Source of the DNA: Burkholderiales bacterium
GTDB taxonomy: Bacteria; Pseudomonadota; Gammaproteobacteria; Burkholderiales; Burkholderiaceae_C
DNA length: 64,000 nucleotides
Assembly: GCA_030604135.1 (NCBI GenBank)
Contig: JAUVWL010000009.1
Coordinates: forward strand, 1-64,000
Reading direction: 5' to 3'
Below the pieces are notes generated by a model. The model did not search any database. It saw only the letters and a program-made list of their open reading frames with translations, and had not been told where the DNA came from. Within the stretch, counting starts at the first letter, position 1; each line of letters begins with the position of its first letter. Position numbers and translations under genes: made by a program. Shown piece after piece: positions 34,950-47,029 of the stretch.

Positions 34950-35714
34950 ATGGATGCCAGGACGGCGACGACGACACACAACTCACCGCTCTACCTGTTC
35001 GAGAAGTTCGAGGTGGGCGTGATCCACCTGGATGCCCGGCGCACCGTGCTGGCCATGAATGACTTCGCCCGCAAGGTATTGCCGGTGGGCGAGAAGCAAC
35101 CCTTCGACAAGCTGGTGACTTCGTTTCACCCGGAACGCTCCAAGCCCAAGGTGAATTTCCTGCTGGACCAAGCTTCCAGCTGTCCGGTGGCCAATGCGGT
35201 ACCGATGACCATGATCATCAACATTCCGGAGCAGGTGCTGCTGATCAAGGTGACCCGCCTCGCCGACCACGTGGGCAGCACCACGGGGTTTGTGCTGGTG
35301 TTCTACGACGTCACGCAGGTGGTCAGTCAGGAGGCCCCAGCCCCCACCGAAAAGCCAGCCAGCAGCGTGCGGCTGCAGCGCATTCCCATGGTGGCCAACC
35401 ACCGCGTGGCTTTTGTGGACGCGCAGGATGTGCTGTGCCTGGAATCTCAGGCCCACTACACCCGGGTGCTGACCCGCCAGGGTTTTCACTTCTGCAATCT
35501 CAGCATCGGTGATCTGGAAGCACGACTGGACCCTGAACGCTTTATGCGGGTCCACCGGTGCTTCATCGTCAACCTGCACGCGGTCGCCAGCCTCGAGCGA
35601 GAAGGCAGCAAGACCCTGATCTCCCTGAAAGGCGCACGAAGGGATCCGATTCCGGTCTCGCGCAGCGAGGTGGGGCGACTGCGCGAGGCTCTGGGGCTGC
35701 TTGCCCGGCATTGA
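34950..35714 (+). CDS. rcoM: RcoM-type PAS-LytTR haem CO sensor/transcription activator
   Basis: 254 aa, cytoplasmic. Residues about 12-125 form a PAS domain (VGVIHLDARRTVLAMNDFARKVLPVG) containing SFHPERSKPKVNFLLD, CPVANAVPMTMIINIPEQ. Residues about 150-250 form a LytTR DNA-binding domain (MVANHRVAFVDAQDVLCLES, RFMRVHRCFIVNL). This matches RcoM, the single-component CO-sensing activator described in Burkholderia xenovorans, where His74, Cys94 and Met104 serve as haem ligands. By position the equivalents here are His60, Cys78 and Met88 (inferred with a two-residue offset). It lies 205 bp upstream of coxM, whose promoter region carries three matching direct repeats, and is the expected activator of the cox operon. 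Confidence 0.88.
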   Translation: MDARTATTTHNSPLYLFEKFEVGVIHLDARRTVLAMNDFARKVLPVGEKQPFDKLVTSFHPERSKPKVNFLLDQASSCPVANAVPMTMIINIPEQVLLIKVTRLADHVGSTTGFVLVFYDVTQVVSQEAPAPTEKPASSVRLQRIPMVANHRVAFVDAQDVLCLESQAHYTRVLTRQGFHFCNLSIGDLEARLDPERFMRVHRCFIVNLHAVASLEREGSKTLISLKGARRDPIPVSRSEVGRLREALGLLARH

Positions 35715-35775
35715 TATCGATCAGTTTTTCGCTAGGGATTTACCCCGATTGCTCTCATGTGGCCGCGTGATCTGA

Positions 35776-35830
35776 GCATTTCGTGCAGCTCTGCGTGCAT
35801 TTCATGCAGAAAAAGCGGCTTCTGATGCCA
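35776..35830 (+). promoter_or_regulatory. Triplicate 21-bp-spaced direct repeats upstream of coxM (probable RcoM site)
   Basis: GCATTTCGTGCAG at 35776, GCATTTCATGCAG at 35797 and a degenerate GCTTCTGATGCCA at 35818 start exactly 21 bp apart, two helical turns. The first two agree at 12 of 13 positions; the third agrees with the second at 8 of 13. LytTR-domain regulators bind such direct repeats on one DNA face. A TACACT at 35876-35881 could be the -10 element, with no good -35, as expected for an activated promoter. Binding by the upstream RcoM is inferred. Confidence 0.7.
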
Positions 35831-35886
35831 ATTTCACCCTAAATCCCGCCGGTGGTGTCGGAAAAGGCACCTCCCTACACTGGCTC

Positions 35887-35904
35887 TTGTCTTGGACAAA
35901 ACCA
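35887..35904 (+). promoter_or_regulatory. Shared palindromic element TTGTCYTGGACAAAACCA before coxM
   Basis: TTGTCTTGGACAAAACCA: a near-perfect inverted repeat (TTGTCt-T-GGACAA) plus a shared tail, its palindrome ending 21 nt before the coxM ATG. A 17/18 match lies on the minus strand at 62546-62529, 22 nt before the lipocalin ATG; a 15/18 relative is at 52331. It is separate from the 21-bp repeats, so coxM may have a second control input. No cognate regulator is known. Confidence 0.5.
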
Positions 35905-35919
35905 CTACAGGAGACAGAC

Positions 35920-36783
35920 ATGATCCCACCGCGGTTCGAGTACCACGCGCCCAAGTCCGTCGGCGAAGCCGTGGCCCTGCTGGGCCAGTACGGGTCTGAC
36001 GCCAAGCTGCTGGCCGGCGGCCACAGCCTGCTGCCGATGATGAAGCTGCGCTTCGCACAGCCCGAGCACCTCATCGACATCAACCGCATTCCCGAGCTGC
36101 GTGGCGTCCGTGAGGAGGGCGACACGGTGGTGATCGGTGCCATGACGGTGGAGAACGACCTGATCAACTCCCCCATCCTTCAGACCAAGGTGCCGCTGCT
36201 GGCCGAGGCGGCCAAGCTGATTGCCGACCCGCAGGTGCGCAACCGCGGCACCATCGGTGGCGACATCGCCCACGGCGACCCGGGCAACGACCACCCGGCG
36301 CTGTCGATCGCGGTGGAGGCGCATTTCGTGCTCGAAGGGCCGAACGGCCGCCGCACCGTGCCGGCTGACGGCTTCTTCCTGGGCACCTACATGACCTTGC
36401 TGGAAGAGAACGAGGTGATGGTCGAGATCCGCGTGCCGGCCTTTGCGCAGGGCACCGGCTGGGCCTATGAAAAGCTCAAGCGCAAGACGGGCGACTGGGC
36501 CACTGCCGGCTGTGCGGTGGTGATGCGCAAGAGCGGCACCACCGTCAGCCACATCCGCATCGCCTTGACCAACGTGGCACCGACCGCGCTGCGCGCCGAG
36601 GCCGCCGAGGCGGCGCTGCTCGGACAGACCTTCACACCACAGGCCGTGCAGGCGGCCGCCGACGCGGCCGTGGCCATTTGCGAGCCGGCCGAGGACCTGC
36701 GCGGCGACGCCGAATACAAGACGGCCATGGCCGGTCAGATGGTCAAGCGGGCACTGAACGCCGCCTGGGCCCGTTGCGCGTAA
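35920..36783 (+). CDS. coxM: Aerobic CO dehydrogenase, medium (FAD) subunit
   Basis: 287 aa from ATG 35920, with AGGAG seven bases upstream; a longer frame to 35887 runs through the promoter. It has the FAD-binding PCMH-type fold with both pyrophosphate motifs: AGGHSLLP (about residues 32-39) and [14 protein letters not shown] (from about 111). It takes electrons from the 2Fe-2S centres of CoxS and passes them to the quinone pool. It is the first gene of the cox operon, as in Oligotropha and Hydrogenophaga. Confidence 0.95.
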
Positions 36784-36798
36784 AACCTGGAGACACAC

Positions 36799-37290
<492 letters not shown>

Positions 37291-37323
37291 GCCCGACCCC
37301 GAAACGAACACGGAGAACCGAAC

Positions 37324-39735
<2,412 letters not shown>

Positions 39736-39748
39736 AGGCAAGACGATC

Positions 39749-40411
39749 ATGGAAGTCAAACTCGACAAACGTTACCCCCTGGATGTGGACCCGGGCCGGG
39801 CCTGGGCCATCCTCGGCGACCTCAAGGCCGTGGCCGGGTGCATGCCGGGCGCCGAACTGACCGAACAGCTGTCCGAGACCTCGTACAAGGGCGGCGTGAA
39901 GGTCAAGGTCGGCCCGGCCGTGGCCCAGTTCGGCGGTCAGGTGGACGTGCTGGAGAAGGACGAAGCGGCCCGCAAGATGGTGCTGCGCGGCAAGGGCGCG
40001 GACAAGGGCGGTTCGTCCGCCTCCATGGACCTGGCCGCGACCATCGAGGCCGATCCGGCCAACCCCGCGGCCAGCGTGCTGCACGGCGACGCCGCGGTCA
40101 TCGTCAACGGCAAGTTCGCCCAGTTCGGCGGCCGCATGATGGTGCAGGTGTCCGACATGATCCTGGCGCAGTTCGTGGAGAACTTCCGCCAGGCCGCGCA
40201 GGCCCTGCCGGCACCGGCCTCGCAGGCCACCGCCGAGGACGCCGCTGCGGCCTTCGGTGGCGAGCTCGAAGCACCGGCCGGTGCTGCGCCCAGCCCAACG
40301 GCCACGCCGACTGCCAAGCCCGCACCCGTGGCACAGGAGATCAACGGCCTGGCCATCGTCTGGGCGCTGATCAAGAACTGGTGGCTGGGCCTGTTCGGCA
40401 AGAAGGCGTAA
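39749..40411 (+). CDS. coxG: CoxG, SRPBCC-fold membrane/quinone link of CO dehydrogenase
   Basis: 220 aa. The N-terminal 150 residues are an SRPBCC/START-like fold (MEVKLDKRYPLDVDPGRAWAILGDL in two halves, GCMPGAELTE). A Pro/Ala-rich linker (about 165-195) and a short hydrophobic C-terminal helix ending IKNWWLGLFGKKA follow. The CoxG family anchors CO dehydrogenase to the membrane and has been proposed to hand quinone to the enzyme. It starts 13 nt after coxL. A 160-bp gap containing a dispersed repeat separates it from coxD. Confidence 0.92.
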   Translation: MEVKLDKRYPLDVDPGRAWAILGDLKAVAGCMPGAELTEQLSETSYKGGVKVKVGPAVAQFGGQVDVLEKDEAARKMVLRGKGADKGGSSASMDLAATIEADPANPAASVLHGDAAVIVNGKFAQFGGRMMVQVSDMILAQFVENFRQAAQALPAPASQATAEDAAAAFGGELEAPAGAAPSPTATPTAKPAPVAQEINGLAIVWALIKNWWLGLFGKKA

Positions 40412-40426
40412 AAATGAGTCACCCCC

Positions 40427-40518
40427 CGCGCCGCTTCGCGTCTCCCCCCTCTCTCGTCCCCGGCGGGAGGGGGGCGGCACCTGAGGCCCGGCAGAGCCGG
40501 TTCCTCGGTGCCCCTGGG
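40427..40518 (+). repeat. Dispersed GC-rich repeat, copy B (between coxG and coxD)
   Basis: The copy reads CCCCGCGCCGCTTCGCGTC, then a C-run/G-run stem with a short insertion (TCTCTCGTCCCCGGC), then GGCGGCACCTGAGGCCCGGC and AGAGCCGGTTCCTCGGTGCC. It aligns block for block with copy C at 45086 and, in reverse orientation, copy A at 29815. It fills the coxG-coxD gap and could divide the structural from the maturation genes at the RNA level. Confidence 0.8.
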
Positions 40519-40571
40519 TGGGCGACCTTGGCGTTCGCTGTGGGTGGTGCTAGGGACGGGCAGCCATTACC

Positions 40572-41507
40572 ATGACGACAACAGGCTCCATCACAGGCGA
40601 CCGCCAGCTGCGCGAAGCGCTGCAGCGCGCCGGCTACCTGGCCGACGAGGATCTGGCCACGACTGTCTGGCTGGCGGGGGAGCTGCAGCGGCCGCTGCTG
40701 CTGGAGGGCGATGCGGGCGTGGGCAAGACCGCGCTGGCCCAGGCGCTGGCGCAGGTCCAGGGGGCGGTGCTGGTGCGGCTGCAGTGCTTCGAAGGTCTGG
40801 ACCTGGCACAGGCGGCCTACGAATGGAACTATGGTCGCCAGCTGATGGCGATCCGGCTGCAGGATGGCCAGCCGGGTACGGTCAAGGAATCCGATGTGTT
40901 CAGCCGCGACTACCTGCTGGAACGGCCGCTGCTCAAGGCCATCAGCCAGGACGGCCCCTGCGTGCTGCTGATCGACGAGATCGACCGCGCCGACGAGGCC
41001 TTCGAGGCCTTTCTGCTGGAGGTGCTGGCCGAGTACCAGATCACCGTGCCCGAAATCGGCACGCTGCGCGCAAAGCACATCCCTCGCGTGATCCTGACCA
41101 GCAACGGCACCCGGGAACTCTCGGACGCCCTGCGCCGCCGCTGCCTGTACCACCACCTGGACTACCCGACACTCGCCCGCGAGATCGCCATCGTCAAGAC
41201 CGCCTTGCCCGAGGCCGACACCCGCCTGGTGGAAGAGGCGGTGCAGTTCGTGCAGCGCCTGCGCCACGAAGACCTGTCCAAGACGCCCGGCATTGCCGAG
41301 ACACTGGACTGGGTGCGCGCCCTGCACCGCATGAACCACCATGCCCTGCCCGAGGACATGGCGGTGTTGTTGACGACCCTGGGCTGCCTGCTCAAGACCC
41401 GGGAAGACCGCTTTGCCTTGGGCACGGACCGCGCCCGACAGCTGATCGAAGGCCGGCGCACCGTGGGGGTGGCCGAGAAGGCACCGGCCAACGCCGCCGC
41501 ATCATGA
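40572..41507 (+). CDS. coxD: CoxD, MoxR-type AAA+ ATPase for CO dehydrogenase maturation
   Basis: 311 aa. Walker A GDAGVGKT at 46-53, Walker B CVLLIDEIDRADE and sensor TSNGTREL are intact, in the MoxR branch of AAA+ proteins. In Oligotropha, CoxD is needed to sulfurate the Mo centre, acting as an ATP-driven unfoldase with the VWA partner CoxE. It overlaps coxE by 4 nt (ATGA), consistent with a functional pair. Confidence 0.94.
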   Translation: MTTTGSITGDRQLREALQRAGYLADEDLATTVWLAGELQRPLLLEGDAGVGKTALAQALAQVQGAVLVRLQCFEGLDLAQAAYEWNYGRQLMAIRLQDGQPGTVKESDVFSRDYLLERPLLKAISQDGPCVLLIDEIDRADEAFEAFLLEVLAEYQITVPEIGTLRAKHIPRVILTSNGTRELSDALRRRCLYHHLDYPTLAREIAIVKTALPEADTRLVEEAVQFVQRLRHEDLSKTPGIAETLDWVRALHRMNHHALPEDMAVLLTTLGCLLKTREDRFALGTDRARQLIEGRRTVGVAEKAPANAAAS

Positions 41508-42691
41508 ACCTGTCGCCGGCCCTGCCCCCCAGCGAGACCCTGGCCGGTTTCGCCGCGCTGCTGCGAGACCACGGACTGGCCGTGGGGGTGGCCGAGCAAC
41601 AGGCCATGCTGCAGGCCGCCCAGCGGCTGGGCGGCCTGCGCGAAGCGCCGGTGCGGGCGGCCTGGCGCGCGATCGCCTGCCACAACGCCCGCCAATGGCG
41701 ACTGTGGCCAGACCTGTTCGATCGGTACTGGCACCCCGAGCGCCTGCGCGGCACGGTGCGGGTGAGCGGGCAGACCCACCCCTCGCGCGACCTGCGGCAG
41801 GCGGTCGATCAGATGCGCGAACAGATGGGCAGCGCGCAGCAGCCGCCCTCGCCGGCCAAGTCTGGCCCGCACACCGCGGCCGACGCACCGAACGCGGGTC
41901 AGGGCGACAGCGACGTCGGCAGCCCGCGCGCCATGGGTGGTGCCAGCCGCCACGGGCCACAGGTGGAAGCACTGCACCGGCGCGACGGCCAGACCTGGCT
42001 GCCGCAGGAACTGGGCGAACTCCAGCGCCTGGCCCGGCAGATCACCTCCCGGCTGCGGCCCCTGCCCACACGCCGCTGGCAAGCGCGCCAACCGGGTCAG
42101 CGACTCGATTTGCGCCGGACGCTGCGCCGCAGCGTCGCCTGGGGCGGGGAACCACTGGCGCCCGCCTGGCAGGTTCGGCGAAAGGAGCCGCCCCGCCTGT
42201 TCATCCTGGCCGACGTGAGCCGCTCGATGGAAGCGCACGCCGCGCTGTTCCTGCGCGTGGCGCGGGCGTTCGCGGTCGTGGCGCAAGCCCGTGTGTTCGT
42301 GTTCCACACCCGGCTGGCCGAGGTCACACCGCTGATGCAGCGCGACTCGGCCGCGGTGCAGGAGAAGATCAACGCGGTGACCGCCGGCTTCGGCGCGGGC
42401 ACCCGCATCGCCGCCAGCCTGCAGGACTTTTCCCGCGCACACGCCCGTGCCCAGCTGCGGCGGGGTGCCCACATCTGGGTCATGTCAGACGGTTTCGACA
42501 CCGACGAGCCGGCGCAGCTTGCCGACGCCCTGCGCACCCTGCGCGGCCACGGCGCGCGCATCACCTGGTTCCATCCCACGCGAACCCTGCCGGCCGCGAC
42601 CGCTTTGCAGGCTGCGCGCAGCCACATCCAGCGCTTTGTTCCGCTGGCCAGTCTGGCCGACCTGGCGGCCGCCCAACACCTGCTGCACTGA
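41504..42691 (+). CDS. coxE: CoxE, VWA-domain protein for CO dehydrogenase maturation
   Basis: 395 aa from the ATG overlapping the coxD stop; longer frames in the same phase lie inside coxD. The C-terminal half is a von Willebrand A domain with the MIDAS motif DVSRSME (about residue 240) and the later VMSDGFDTDEP. A Pro/Gln/Gly-rich linker occupies about 108-150. Genetic work in Oligotropha links CoxE, with CoxF, to placing Cu(I) into the Mo-S site. Confidence 0.92.
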   Translation: MNLSPALPPSETLAGFAALLRDHGLAVGVAEQQAMLQAAQRLGGLREAPVRAAWRAIACHNARQWRLWPDLFDRYWHPERLRGTVRVSGQTHPSRDLRQAVDQMREQMGSAQQPPSPAKSGPHTAADAPNAGQGDSDVGSPRAMGGASRHGPQVEALHRRDGQTWLPQELGELQRLARQITSRLRPLPTRRWQARQPGQRLDLRRTLRRSVAWGGEPLAPAWQVRRKEPPRLFILADVSRSMEAHAALFLRVARAFAVVAQARVFVFHTRLAEVTPLMQRDSAAVQEKINAVTAGFGAGTRIAASLQDFSRAHARAQLRRGAHIWVMSDGFDTDEPAQLADALRTLRGHGARITWFHPTRTLPAATALQAARSHIQRFVPLASLADLAAAQHLLH

Positions 42692-42702
42692 AGGAGTCCA
42701 CC

Positions 42703-43686
42703 ATGAACCGCCACGACTGGATCGAACACGCGGCCCGGCTGCACGCCAGCGAGCAGCCCTTTGCGCTGGTCACCGTGCTGCGCGCCCAGGCCCCCACCTC
42801 GGCCAAGGCCGGTGACAAGGCCCTGGTCACGGCCGACGGCCAGATCCACGGCTGGATCGGCGGTGGCTGCGCGCAACCCGCGGTGGTCAAGACCGTGCGC
42901 CAGGCATTGGCCAGCGGCCAGCCCCAGAGCATCCGGATCGCCCCGACCGACGAGACCGCCGAGCGCACGCTGGGCGACGTGCTGGAGTTCGGCATGGCCT
43001 GCCACTCGGGTGGCACGCTGGAACTGTTCATCGACCCGGTGCTGCCGGCACCACAGCTGGTGGTGTTCGGCGACTCGCCGGTGGCGCGCGCGCTGACCGG
43101 CCTGGCCCCACGCGTGGGCCTGCAATCGGTACTGGTGGCCGAAGGCGCGATGGCGACCGACTTCCCGGACGCGGCGCGTGTGATCGGCACCGACCAGGCG
43201 GACGCCGTGACGGCGGCGATGCCAGCGGGCGGCCTGGTCGTCGTCGCCACCCAGGGCCGGCGCGACCTGCCGGCGCTGCGCACGGCCCTGGCGCTGCAGC
43301 CCCGGCACCTGTGGTTTGTGGCCAGCGAACGCAAGGCCGGCGTGCTTCGGGAGAGCCTGATCGGGGCCGGTGAAGACCCGGCACGGGTGGCTGCCATCGT
43401 CGCGCCCGCAGGCGAGCCCATCGGTGCGCAAACCCCCGAGGAAATTGCACTGGCTGTGCTGGCCACGGTCATCGCAGCCCGGCGCGGACGCCCGGCACGC
43501 TCCGAAGCGCCGGTGACCCCGGCAGAAGAGCCGGCGCCGAAGTTCAAGCTGGACCTGCCGCCGATGGAGATGGGCAGTTGCTGTAGCGGGGGTGCTGCGA
43601 AGCCCGCCGCTGCCACCGAGACCGTTTTCGCGACGACCTCCGTGGCCGAAACACCGACCAAAAAGTCCTGTTGCGGGGGAAACTGA
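42703..43686 (+). CDS. coxF: CoxF, XdhC/CoxI-family maturation protein with Cys-rich tail
   Basis: 327 aa from ATG 42703, GGAG upstream. The N-terminal XdhC/CoxI domain has GWIGGGCAQPAVVKTV. A Rossmann-like domain follows (LVVFGDSPVARALTGL, LVVVATQGRRD). The C-terminus adds about 60 residues ending in two Cys pairs, GSCCSGG and SCCGGN, which look like soft-metal ligands. CoxF of Oligotropha is required for Cu insertion, so this tail is a good candidate for Cu(I) delivery (inference). Confidence 0.88.
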   Translation: MNRHDWIEHAARLHASEQPFALVTVLRAQAPTSAKAGDKALVTADGQIHGWIGGGCAQPAVVKTVRQALASGQPQSIRIAPTDETAERTLGDVLEFGMACHSGGTLELFIDPVLPAPQLVVFGDSPVARALTGLAPRVGLQSVLVAEGAMATDFPDAARVIGTDQADAVTAAMPAGGLVVVATQGRRDLPALRTALALQPRHLWFVASERKAGVLRESLIGAGEDPARVAAIVAPAGEPIGAQTPEEIALAVLATVIAARRGRPARSEAPVTPAEEPAPKFKLDLPPMEMGSCCSGGAAKPAAATETVFATTSVAETPTKKSCCGGN

Positions 43687-43687
43687 C

Positions 43688-44368
43688 ATGGGTTGTATCC
43701 TCAAAGGCGGCGGCGGGCTCTACAGCCGGCTGGTGGTGGGCGCGGTGCTCCTGGCGGCGGGCTCGGGCTCGCGCATGGGGAACAAGCCCAAGTGCCTGCT
43801 GGAGCTGGGCGGCGTACCCCTGATCCGGCGCCAGCTGATCGCCCTCTCGGGCGCGGGTGTGGACGAACTGGTGGTGGTGCTGGGCCACCACGCCGAGCGC
43901 ATCGAACCGGCGGTGCGGGACTTCCCGGTCACGCTGGTGCGCAATCCCGACCCGGACGCTGGTCAGAATGCATCGTTGCGGCTGGGATTGCAGGCCTTGA
44001 GTGGCAAGATCGACACGGTGCTGGTCGCGCTGGCCGATCAGCCTCTGATCAACTCGCAGGACATCAACGACCTGATCGGCGCCTACAAGAAGCGGCCCGC
44101 AGGAACCGAGGTCGTCCAGCCGACGGTGGACGGCCTGCCCGGCAACCCGGTGATGTTCAGCCAGACCGTGCGCGAGCAAATCCTGGCGGGCGAGGCGCGC
44201 GTGGGCTGCAAGCAATGGCAGGCGGCCAACCCGCAGGCGGTTCACCCCTGGTCCACCCCCAACACGCGCTACCGCACCGACGTCGACAGCCCCGAGGACA
44301 TCGAGGCCCTGGCCGCCCGCACCGGCCACCGGCTGCGCTGGCCGGCAGACCTGCTGACCGAAGCCTGA
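43688..44368 (+). CDS. mocA: Molybdopterin cytidylyltransferase-like NTP transferase
   Basis: 226 aa from ATG 43688, one base after the coxF stop. The nucleotidyltransferase signature LLAAGSGSRMGNKPK and the second motif ALADQPLI are intact, as in MocA/MobA-type enzymes. CO dehydrogenase uses molybdopterin cytosine dinucleotide, so a CTP-specific MocA encoded in the operon makes sense. CTP preference over GTP is inferred from context. The start MGCILKGGGGLYSRL has a short extra N-terminal peptide. Confidence 0.85.
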   Translation: MGCILKGGGGLYSRLVVGAVLLAAGSGSRMGNKPKCLLELGGVPLIRRQLIALSGAGVDELVVVLGHHAERIEPAVRDFPVTLVRNPDPDAGQNASLRLGLQALSGKIDTVLVALADQPLINSQDINDLIGAYKKRPAGTEVVQPTVDGLPGNPVMFSQTVREQILAGEARVGCKQWQAANPQAVHPWSTPNTRYRTDVDSPEDIEALAARTGHRLRWPADLLTEA

Positions 44369-44383
44369 GACCGGAGACCCGCC

Positions 44384-45076
44384 GTGGCGCCCGATCCGCT
44401 GCACACGCTCTGGTTCACGCCACTGGGCGTGCACCGCTTTGCGCAGGCGGATGAAGTCAACCCGCTGCTGGTGCGCGTGTTCCGCACCCTGCGTGCCACC
44501 GACGAACGTGCCGACCCACAGGCCGCTTTCTACGCCAGTCGCGACGACCTGCTGCAGCGCATCCGCCTGCCCGAATGGGAGCAACTCGTGCGCTTCATGG
44601 TCGACGGTCTGCGCCAGACGGTGGTGCTCGCCAACCAGGGCGTGTGGCCCGAGGCCGCGCCGGGCCTGCAGATCGCGCTGCGCGGCATCTGGTTCCAGAT
44701 CGCCAACCGGGGCAGCCACCACGACGTGCACACCCATGGCAACTGCTCCTGGTCCGGCGTCTATTGTGTGCAGGTGGACGACGCGGCGGGGCGACGCGCG
44801 CACCGACTGCTGGGTGCCGCCAACGGTGTGACACGCTTCTACGGCCCGCATTTCAACCACCTGGGTGGGGCGCACATGGATTTTGGCAACGCCTACCTGC
44901 AGGCGTCGCACCTCGACGTCGAGCCGCTGCCCGGCCAGCTGGTGGTGTTCCCGTCCTGGCTGCCGCACCAGGCCATGCCCTACGACGGCGAGACCGACCG
45001 CATCATCGTCTCGTTCAACGCCAGTGTGCATGCGGCCACCGGCAGCGACCAGCTGCACGGGTACAGCCATGTCTGA
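44384..45076 (+). CDS. Putative 2-oxoglutarate/Fe(II) oxygenase (TIGR02466-like) inside the cox operon
   Basis: 230 aa from a GTG at 44384 with GGAGA upstream. The middle reads NRGSHHDVHTHGNCSWSGVYCVQ and the C-terminal third LPGQLVVFPSWLPHQAMPYDG...RIIVSFN, the His-X-His/Asp...His...Arg pattern of the double-stranded beta-helix oxygenases typical of TIGR02466 proteins. The substrate is unknown. It is not one of the described cox genes I know, yet it sits between mocA and a membrane protein, 15 nt after the former and overlapping the latter by 8 nt. A role in CO dehydrogenase maturation or a cofactor side reaction is speculative. Confidence 0.75.
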   Translation: MAPDPLHTLWFTPLGVHRFAQADEVNPLLVRVFRTLRATDERADPQAAFYASRDDLLQRIRLPEWEQLVRFMVDGLRQTVVLANQGVWPEAAPGLQIALRGIWFQIANRGSHHDVHTHGNCSWSGVYCVQVDDAAGRRAHRLLGAANGVTRFYGPHFNHLGGAHMDFGNAYLQASHLDVEPLPGQLVVFPSWLPHQAMPYDGETDRIIVSFNASVHAATGSDQLHGYSHV

Positions 45077-46031
45077 ACTGAAGCTCCCCCCCGCGCCGCT
45101 TCGCGTCACCCCCCTCGGGGGGGCGGCACCTGAGGCCCGGCGAAGCCGGTTCCTCGGTGCCCTCGATGGACGTCGCTTCGTGCGCGGCGGTGAGCTGTCC
45201 GCGTTGCGCCAGCTGGACGCGCTGGCGGCCTGGGTGCTGCTGGGCTGGCTGGGCATGCGGCTGGGCTGGTCGGTGGCCAGCGGCGTGCTGCCCGTGGTCA
45301 TCTGGTGGAGCGTGCGCAGCGCCTGCCAAGCCAGCGGACGCCCCCTGCGGGGCTGGGGTGTGGCCGGCCTGTGGCTGGCCATGCTGGCCCTGGCGGGCCT
45401 GTCGCTGGTGTCGGCCGCTCCGCTCGGCCTGCTGCTGGTGGCCGCCGGCGCCTGGGGTGTCTGGAGTGCCACCCTGTCGGACGGCCACCCACATGCCCCC
45501 ATGGACGCGCCACGGCTGGCCATGGGGCTGATGATGGGCAGCCTGTGGCTGTCCAGCCAGTGGTGCCTGGGACCGGGCTGGACCGATGGCCAGGCGGTGG
45601 CCCTGCACCTGGGTCTGATGACCGGCCTGCCCCTGCTGGTGCTGGCGCTGGAGCGGCTGTGCGGAACCACCCTGTCAACCATGGGCCCGCGGCCGGCACA
45701 CGGCCTGCTGCTGGCGGGCGCGCTGCTCATGGCCATGGCCTCCGGCACCGCAGGGCACGTCTGCGGCATGCTGCTGCTGGTGCTGGCCGGAACCCTGACC
45801 GAGCGGCGGCCTGCGCCACCGACGCCAAGCCCTTCCGCCCTGGCATGGGGCTGGGTCGGACCGGCCCTGCTGCTGGGTGTCGGTGTGGCGGCGACCCGCT
45901 GGGGGCCGGGCGCGTTGCAAGCCGCCTGGTCCGTCGTCGCCCTGCTCGCGCTGGCGGGCACCCTGCCGCGTTCGCCTTTCAGACAAAGGACACCGTCCTT
46001 TGCACACCACCCTTGGAGAGATGCTTCATGA
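45069..46031 (+). CDS. Unrecognised polytopic membrane protein with repeat-derived N-terminus
   Basis: 320 aa from ATG 45069. After residue 45 the protein is almost entirely hydrophobic, with seven to nine membrane segments rich in Leu/Ala/Gly/Trp and no recognised motif. Residues about 6-33 (LPPAPLRVTPLGGAAPEARR, SRFLGAL) are encoded by dispersed repeat copy C, so they are unlikely to be ancestral. A GTG near 45179 could be the older start. It overlaps the oxygenase gene by 8 nt and coxI by 4 nt. It could be a positional counterpart of CoxK, but I cannot show homology. Confidence 0.7.
   Translation: MSELKLPPAPLRVTPLGGAAPEARRSRFLGALDGRRFVRGGELSALRQLDALAAWVLLGWLGMRLGWSVASGVLPVVIWWSVRSACQASGRPLRGWGVAGLWLAMLALAGLSLVSAAPLGLLLVAAGAWGVWSATLSDGHPHAPMDAPRLAMGLMMGSLWLSSQWCLGPGWTDGQAVALHLGLMTGLPLLVLALERLCGTTLSTMGPRPAHGLLLAGALLMAMASGTAGHVCGMLLLVLAGTLTERRPAPPTPSPSALAWGWVGPALLLGVGVAATRWGPGALQAAWSVVALLALAGTLPRSPFRQRTPSFAHHPWRDAS
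45086..45165 (+). repeat. Dispersed GC-rich repeat, copy C, inside a coding region
   Basis: It reads CCCCGCGCCGCTTCGCGTCA, CCCCCCTCGGGGGGGCGGCA, CCTGAGGCCCGGCGAAGCCG and GTTCCTCGGTGCCC. It matches copy B at 40427 nearly base for base except for a shorter central stem, and matches copy A at 29815 in reverse. Unlike A and B it is in frame in the 5' end of the membrane protein gene at 45069, adding about 28 residues. Confidence 0.82.
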
Positions 46032-47029
46032 ACAGCCTCGACATCGACGTCATCCGCACCGCCCTGGACTGGCAATCGCGTGGTCACCGCGTGGTCATGG
46101 GCACGGTGGTGCGCACCTGGGGATCGGCCCCGCGTCCACCGGGTTCGCTCATGATCATCCGCGACGACGGCCAGGTGGCCGGCTCGGTCTCGGGCGGCTG
46201 CATCGAGGACGACCTGATCCGCCGCGTGGCCGAGGGCGAGCTGGCACTGCGCCAGCCCGAAACCACCACCTACGGCCAGACAGCCGAGGAGGTGCGCCGT
46301 TTCGGCCTGCCCTGCGGCGGCACGGTGCAGATCGTGCTCGAACCCCTGTCGGCGGGTTCGCGGTTGCGCGAGCTGCTGGTGGCCATCGAGTCGCACCGCC
46401 GCGTGCAGCGCCGGCTGGACATGACCACCGGCATCGCCCAGCTGGAAGACAGCACCGACGGCGACCGCGTGCGGTTTGACGGACAGACCCTGAGCACCGT
46501 GCACGGCCCGCGCCTTCGTCTGCTCGTCATCGGTGGCGGGCAGCTCTCGCGCTACCTGGCCAGCATGGCGGTGATGCTGGATTACCAGGTCACGGTCTGC
46601 GAGCCGCGCACCGAGTACCACGAGGGCTGGGAACGCATGGATGGGGTAACCTTGTCGACCACCATGCCCGACGATCTGGTGCTGGCCATGCACCTGGACG
46701 AACACAGCGCGGTGGTGGCCGTCACCCACGACCCCAAGCTGGACGACCTGGCGCTGATGGAGGCCTTGCGCACGCCGGCCTTCTACGTCGGCGCGCTGGG
46801 CTCGCTGCAAAACAACGGCAAGCGCCGCGAGCGCCTGCTGCAGTTCGATGTGTCCGAGGCCGAGGTGGCCCGGCTGCACGGCCCGGTCGGCCTGAACCTG
46901 GGTGCGCTGACGCCGCCCGAAATTGCCATGAGCATCGTGGCCGAGATGACCGCCATTCGTCGTGGCATGGACTTGTCGGGCCCGCTGAGCAACTGGTCGG
47001 GCTCGAAGACGGTCTGCCTCAGCTGCTGA
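46028..47029 (+). CDS. coxI: CoxI, XdhC-family molybdenum cofactor maturation protein
   Basis: 333 aa from the ATG overlapping the previous stop. The N-terminal XdhC/CoxI domain carries GSAPRPPGSLMIIRDDGQ and GSVSGGCIEDDLI. The C-terminal Rossmann domain has RLLVIGGGQLSRYLASMA and AFYVGALGSLQNNGKRRERL. XdhC proteins bind molybdenum cofactor, protect it and help its sulfuration before insertion. The gene has two XdhC paralogues with different jobs in this operon (see coxF). It is the last gene of the cluster and ends 9 nt from the convergent MOSC gene. Confidence 0.92.
   Translation: MNSLDIDVIRTALDWQSRGHRVVMGTVVRTWGSAPRPPGSLMIIRDDGQVAGSVSGGCIEDDLIRRVAEGELALRQPETTTYGQTAEEVRRFGLPCGGTVQIVLEPLSAGSRLRELLVAIESHRRVQRRLDMTTGIAQLEDSTDGDRVRFDGQTLSTVHGPRLRLLVIGGGQLSRYLASMAVMLDYQVTVCEPRTEYHEGWERMDGVTLSTTMPDDLVLAMHLDEHSAVVAVTHDPKLDDLALMEALRTPAFYVGALGSLQNNGKRRERLLQFDVSEAEVARLHGPVGLNLGALTPPEIAMSIVAEMTAIRRGMDLSGPLSNWSGSKTVCLSC

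Follow-up and report, generated by a model that had tools for sequence, protein, structure and literature searches.

Among the nearest described relatives of the locus treated here are clusters in which the haem-based CO sensor RcoM stands with the genes of a form I carbon monoxide dehydrogenase (CODH). Control of cox genes by RcoM1 is given as known in Paraburkholderia xenovorans (PMC11347149), and clusters of rcoM, coxMSL, coxGDEF and mocA were described in Cupriavidus ulmosensis CV2 and Paraburkholderia terrae COX (PMC11771112). RcoM was also predicted for the anaerobic coo genes of Rubrivivax gelatinosus CBS (PMC4257681). We analysed 64,000 nucleotides from a Burkholderiales bacterium (contig JAUVWL010000009.1, called the window below), in which an rcoM-like gene precedes a cox operon that also carries a putative 2-oxoglutarate (2OG)-Fe(II) oxygenase gene.

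In the CODH of Hydrogenophaga pseudoflava, a 4-hydroxyarginine adjoining the catalytic cysteine was reported in 2000 (via PMC3750175 and PMC4938201). Hydroxyarginine is very rare in proteins, with four cases known in 2016 (PMC4938201), and among form I CODHs only that of H. pseudoflava is listed with it (PMC4938201). Makers are named for two of the cases, YcfD (PMC3750175) and NDUFAF5 (PMC4938201). NDUFAF5 falls outside the 2OG oxygenases, and its substrate is a related arginine loop of complex I (PMC4938201). Our literature search, beyond which most subscription papers lay, found neither an enzyme named for the CODH hydroxyarginine nor a proposal of an oxygenase role in CODH. It also found no literature linking the oxygenase family TIGR02466 with carbon monoxide, and PMC12818879 was silent on cox genes.

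The rcoM-cox module of the window is a further member of an already described layout, and the more interesting part of the locus is the oxygenase gene. The H. pseudoflava CODH carries 4-hydroxyarginine, for which none of the papers found gives a maker; this gene is the natural candidate. Our joint explanation, to which we give slightly less than an even chance, is a complete form I CODH operon behind an RcoM-type, CO-activated switch, plus an oxygenase likely hydroxylating Arg384 of CoxL. CO would bind the predicted haem of the regulator and replace Met88, as with Met104 in P. xenovorans RcoM. The CO-bound regulator would then activate, rather than repress, the operon by way of the two repeats that precede coxM. 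During CoxL maturation, the oxygenase-like protein would use Fe(II), O2 and 2OG to place a hydroxyl on C4 of Arg384, beside Cys385. The more specific proposal, offered more tentatively, is that the product of 44384-45076 is an arginine 4-hydroxylase dedicated to CoxL, prolyl-hydroxylase-like and with an unusual three-histidine HxH...H iron site. It would make the active-site 4-hydroxyarginine and would tune the Mo-Cu site in just a subset of form I enzymes (Hydrogenophaga relatives and Deinococcus).

An initial annotation of this DNA had placed a PAS-LytTR gene directly before a complete form I Mo/Cu cox operon, and the genes were found at the coordinates claimed, with profile matches. Its gene list stood for rcoM, coxMSLGDEF, mocA and coxI and left out the oxygenase gene and the hydrophobic protein behind it. 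The suggestion of a novel sensor-enzyme combination was dropped, because the same layout is already published (PMC11771112). The features of the locus are as follows.

34950..35714, plus strand: rcoM-like gene, 254 aa, PAS (predicted haem) and LytTR DNA-binding domains by profile matches; predicted ligands His60, Cys78 and Met88
35780..35808, plus strand: predicted RcoM operator 5' of coxM, TTCGTGCA (35780-35787) and TTCATGCA (35801-35808), 21 bp start to start
35920..36783, plus strand: coxM, FAD (flavin adenine dinucleotide) subunit; ATG start at 35920
36799..37290, plus strand: coxS, [2Fe-2S] subunit, by profile match
37324..39735, plus strand: coxL, Mo/Cu subunit of form I CODH; TIGR02416, AYRCSFR with Arg384-Cys385
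39749..40411, plus strand: coxG (PF06240)
40572..41507, plus strand: coxD, AAA ATPase for metal-cluster assembly, by profile match
41504..42691, plus strand: coxE, VWA protein (PF05762)
42703..43686, plus strand: coxF, XdhC/CoxI family, by profile match
43688..44368, plus strand: mocA, MobA-like nucleotidyltransferase, likely for the molybdopterin cytosine dinucleotide (MCD) cofactor, by profile match
44384..45076, plus strand: putative 2OG-Fe(II) oxygenase (PF13759/TIGR02466), candidate CoxL Arg384 4-hydroxylase; GTG start
45069..46031, plus strand: hydrophobic protein, probably membrane; no match in Pfam or NCBIfam
46028..47029, plus strand: coxI, second XdhC/CoxI family protein, by profile match

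In the window, ychF on the minus strand stands before the plus-strand rcoM-like gene and cox genes. The gap between mocA and the oxygenase gene is 15 nt; in the run of oxygenase gene, hydrophobic gene and coxI, the end of each gene overlaps the start of the next. The host genome (3.98 Mb, with the window on contig 26) encodes a RuBisCO large subunit. The nearest named loci by RcoM similarity were mostly from Hydrogenophaga, which was taken as the host genus.

The RcoM-like regulator and the coxM promoter

The regulator scored 73.8 bits against LytTR (cut-off 22.6) and 22.7 bits against PAS_10 (cut-off 22.1). With its N-terminal PAS and C-terminal LytTR domains, it has the soluble one-component architecture of RcoM. 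The predicted haem ligands pointed out in the initial annotation, His60, Cys78 and Met88, never varied among 87 aligned RcoM-like proteins, and Met86 was present in 86 of them. Rows below 40% identity, rows of short coverage and identical rows had been removed from this alignment, and one P. aromaticivorans protein (34% identical) was added manually. The rcoM gene is single copy, the sole other match in the genome being to the LytTR domain alone (35%). In line with the claim that the cluster has no membrane sensor gene, no MHYT (CoxC/CoxH-type) match was found in the window, and the genome gave one short match on a different contig.

In the best 80 of 124 loci ranked by RcoM similarity, coxM lay 3' of rcoM on the same strand and within less than 2 kb in all but one. 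The exception is a Thiomonas locus (L059), where rcoM and the 3' end of the cox operon face each other. In the locus of P. aromaticivorans pBN2 (L084, 5531-7362), the rcoM-like gene is divergent on the opposite strand, and an OmpW-like gene lies between rcoM and coxM.

Two TTCRTGCA-type repeats lie between rcoM and coxM, with starts at 35780 and 35801, 112-140 bp ahead of the coxM start codon. For RcoM1, the site described in print consists of three TTCNNGCA repeats with spacers of 12-13 bp (PMC11347149). Repeats were scored by a 5-of-6 match to TTC..GCA at a spacing of 19-22 bp and compared with 100 sets of dinucleotide shuffles. The pair was present in 64 of 82 homologous promoters and the triplet in 8, compared with shuffle means of 2.0 (maximum 8) and 0.0 (maximum 1), respectively. 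A second conserved promoter element (~gga..ttCCc.gattgc) was seen at 35736-35752 and in relatives, about 28-44 bp 5' of the repeats, in many loci.

The invariant predicted ligands, the conserved order of rcoM and coxM and the conserved repeat pair support, at the level of sequence comparison, the one-component RcoM switch that had been proposed. This part of the locus adds a conserved and testable predicted operator common to many Burkholderiales CO oxidisers.

CoxL and the oxygenase gene

CoxL matched the aerobic CODH model TIGR02416 with 1604 bits (cut-off 991), and the form I loop AYRCSFR, named in the initial annotation, was present at residues 382-388, which gives Arg384-Cys385. Together with the coxM and coxS subunits and the coxDEF maturation genes, these features identify a form I Mo/Cu CODH. 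The loop read VAYRCSFR in all 43 oxygenase-bearing loci in which it was covered. Ten departures (VSYRCSFR in seven, VAYRCSLR in three) all fell in loci without an oxygenase match, six of them short stretches; a few genomes were counted twice in this tally. Three loci (L091, L093 and L095) form a CoxL clade that is 69-71% identical to the window protein, with AYRCSLR for AYRCSFR, and a coxF match was not seen in the clusters of L091 and L093. In another genome of the genus, a second CoxL-like large-subunit gene (33%; L141, 1059-3365) is oriented toward the cox operon's end.

The oxygenase protein belongs to its family with 63.5 bits against PF13759 (cut-off 27) and 71.9 bits against TIGR02466 (cut-off 62.5). 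Residues H113, H116, H118, H195 and R206 did not vary across the 62 sequences of the alignment, 61 of which came from two sets of listed proteins (120 of 1422 and 120 of 858); ligand roles are assigned from this alignment. Two distant entries from structural genomics, 2rg4 and 3bvc, have the same histidine and arginine pattern, and the site therefore appears to be under selection. The fold of the protein is predicted to be like that of protein prolyl-hydroxylases, and the model matches PHD2/EGLN1 and Pseudomonas putida P4H over most of the chain. Distant relatives occur in 110 phage records, mostly cyanobacterial; the five listed are at 24-31% identity.

The oxygenase gene is conserved in position. 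It was found in 39 of the 42 RcoM loci that extend at least 900 bp past mocA; a separate count of 42 loci with and 12 without the gene includes loci picked by oxygenase status, so the former is the unbiased count. Samples of genomes were also drawn by kinship rather than by RcoM. In the family sample (299 genomes), 19 genomes carried the oxygenase, 30 a form I CoxL and 18 both (Fisher test, p ~5e-20, relatedness ignored). In 16 of these 18, the two genes shared a contig and a strand at a distance of 3.5-4.8 kb. The remaining two (G019 and G240), and G209, the nineteenth genome with the oxygenase (81% complete), had the gene behind mocA in a cox fragment, and no copy outside cox operons was found among the 19. 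In the genus sample (67 genomes), all 13 genomes with a form I CoxL were among the 14 with the oxygenase. Ten of the 13 had both genes on one contig, and in the other three a contig apart from that of CoxL carried the oxygenase gene, flanked by mocA and coxI; the fourteenth genome (79% complete) showed coxF-mocA-oxygenase-coxI. From outside the phylum, plasmid p380k of Deinococcus sp. AJ005 carries coxM-S-L-G-oxygenase-XdhC-MoxR-VWA, with an oxygenase 48% identical to that of the window. In the phylum sample (398 genomes), CoxL was found in 18 genomes and the oxygenase, with the Deinococcus protein as query, in three, just one of which (G000) has CoxL.

The region behind mocA differs among clusters. 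In most of 12 loci without the oxygenase, visual inspection of the open reading frames (ORFs) after mocA showed a hydrophobic protein; in L051 and L092 an acyl-CoA-dehydrogenase-like ORF follows mocA. The slot between the oxygenase gene and coxI is filled in other clusters by weakly similar or merely hydrophobic ORFs, even where the oxygenase is missing. For P. aromaticivorans, the possibility that the slot between mocA and coxI holds a divergent oxygenase was considered and rejected: the protein there (P0121) is hydrophobic, lacks the oxygenase motif and gave no significant match to the window hydrophobic protein. A G+C-rich repeat is present in two copies, at 40422-40513 between coxG and coxD and at 45087-45162, with pieces 84% and 97% identical. 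The second copy lies inside the annotated 5' start of the hydrophobic gene, so the true start may be further downstream.

Weighing the explanations

Several observations weigh against the joint explanation. For the regulator, the window promoter has two 6/6 repeats 21 bp apart and no third in phase, where P. xenovorans has a triplet. Exact copies of the pair number three in the genome (two of them at places other than coxM) versus two for the reversed control; the motif alone is therefore unspecific, and the evidence is its conservation at the coxM promoter position. No sigma-70-like promoter was found, and CODH was called constitutive in the near relative H. pseudoflava (PMC11771112). For the oxygenase, the iron motif is H116-x-H118 with no invariant HxD/E, position 114 being D, E, N or G. 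The gene was missing from 12 of the 30 family genomes and 17 of the 18 phylum genomes with CoxL, where the arginine was kept wherever the loop was covered, and 60 VAYRCSFR loci, many ending too early, also had no oxygenase match. The oxygenase is thus not needed for CODH in general, and the modification would be optional in these genomes, or made otherwise. Four homologues were found in another order of the same class (G950 and G1091, 43-44%; G438 and G454, 29-34%), with no cox genes in the 12.8-16 kb around them and no CoxL match in the four genomes, and those of G950 and G1091 joined named gammaproteobacterial rows in the tree. One search outside the order had no positive control of its own; the same query gave matches in the family, phylum and genus searches.

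Residence in a cox operon indicates a pathway and not a substrate. Members of the family are also found away from cox clusters, so the ancestral target may have been something other than CoxL. The oxygenase may be a CODH accessory with another target (another residue, CoxG, CoxF, MocA or a small molecule), Arg384 being hydroxylated otherwise. We regard this as unlikely, though to be taken seriously: the sole hydroxylation that we found reported in this pathway is that of the arginine beside Cys385, in a genus where the oxygenase accompanies CoxL in 13 of 13 genomes, and the predicted fold matches peptide and protein hydroxylases. It is also conceivable that the hydroxyarginine arises without a dedicated oxygenase, either by oxidation at the Mo-Cu redox site, which the arginine adjoins, or by an enzyme like NDUFAF5, whose action on complex I is a precedent (PMC4938201); the oxygenase gene would then be incidental. 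This seems distinctly unlikely, as a modification made by the enzyme itself should appear in all form I CODHs, yet that of H. pseudoflava is the only one listed (PMC4938201), and no methyltransferase-like (NDUFAF5-type) family was found among the operon proteins, to which, rather than the rest of the genome, this search was limited. The lack of an invariant HxD/E motif would also suit a degenerate protein of the family that catalyses nothing and is bound to CODH in the role of chaperone or oxygen sensor. The five residues invariant in the alignment, in a pattern that extends to 2rg4 and 3bvc, make this improbable.

As to the regulator, the PAS-LytTR protein might control cox by another signal or with another sign, using a Cys-ligated haem to sense redox state or O2, or acting as a CO-released repressor. 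CoxC, also a LytTR protein, is a repressor relieved by CO (PMC11347149); the CODH of H. pseudoflava was called constitutive, and no promoter hexamers were found against which to position the repeats. We nevertheless consider it quite improbable, given the invariance of the three RcoM-type residues predicted to bind haem and the distance of the repeats from the coxM ATG, RcoM1 and most LytTR regulators binding upstream of -35 and activating (PMC11347149).

The CODH hydroxyarginine neighbours the catalytic cysteine in a Mo-Cu site that is unique. An operon oxygenase restricted to certain lineages makes the question of the residue's maker and purpose experimentally tractable, and form I clusters with and without the gene provide ready natural comparisons.

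Comparison with known systems

The regulator of the window shares its PAS-LytTR architecture with RcoM-1 and RcoM-2 of P. xenovorans LB400, which has two such proteins whereas the window genome has one copy. Cys94 and Met104 of P. xenovorans RcoM stand ten residues apart, as do Cys78 and Met88 of the window protein, and His74 presumably corresponds to His60. The predicted operator of the window is likewise of the TTCNNGCA type, with two strong repeats instead of the triplet. CoxC and CoxH of Afipia carboxidovorans OM5 are also LytTR proteins of a cox cluster, and CoxC exerts CO-responsive control of cox genes. However, CoxC is a repressor with a copper-requiring membrane MHYT sensor (PMC11347149), while the window regulator is a PAS-LytTR protein without MHYT. 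The CV2 and COX clusters resemble the window in form I coxMSL, coxGDEF, mocA and a putative haem CO-sensing RcoM, and no oxygenase is named for them in the available part of their description (PMC11771112). The cox cluster of P. aromaticivorans pBN2 (Paraburkholderia) differs from the window in having no oxygenase; neither this plasmid nor pHCG3 of OM5, whose chromosome lay outside the search, gave a match.

The closest enzyme is CutL of H. pseudoflava (PDB 1ffu/1ffv), which has 803 aa, is 97.3% identical to the window CoxL and carries Arg384-Cys385 at identical numbers. No CoxL more than 97.8% identical to 1ffu was present among the loci compared; H. pseudoflava's own genome was thus not found there, and the oxygenase was accordingly not seen in this species. 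YcfD makes 3-hydroxyarginine in L16 (PMC3750175), compared with the C4 target proposed here. The predicted fold of the oxygenase is close to PHD2/EGLN1 and to P. putida P4H (EF-Tu complex), and its proposed job, one residue of one protein, is alike. It differs from these 2OG protein hydroxylases in sequence (~15% identity), in an HxH instead of an HxD/E motif and in its proposed target, the C4 of an arginine.

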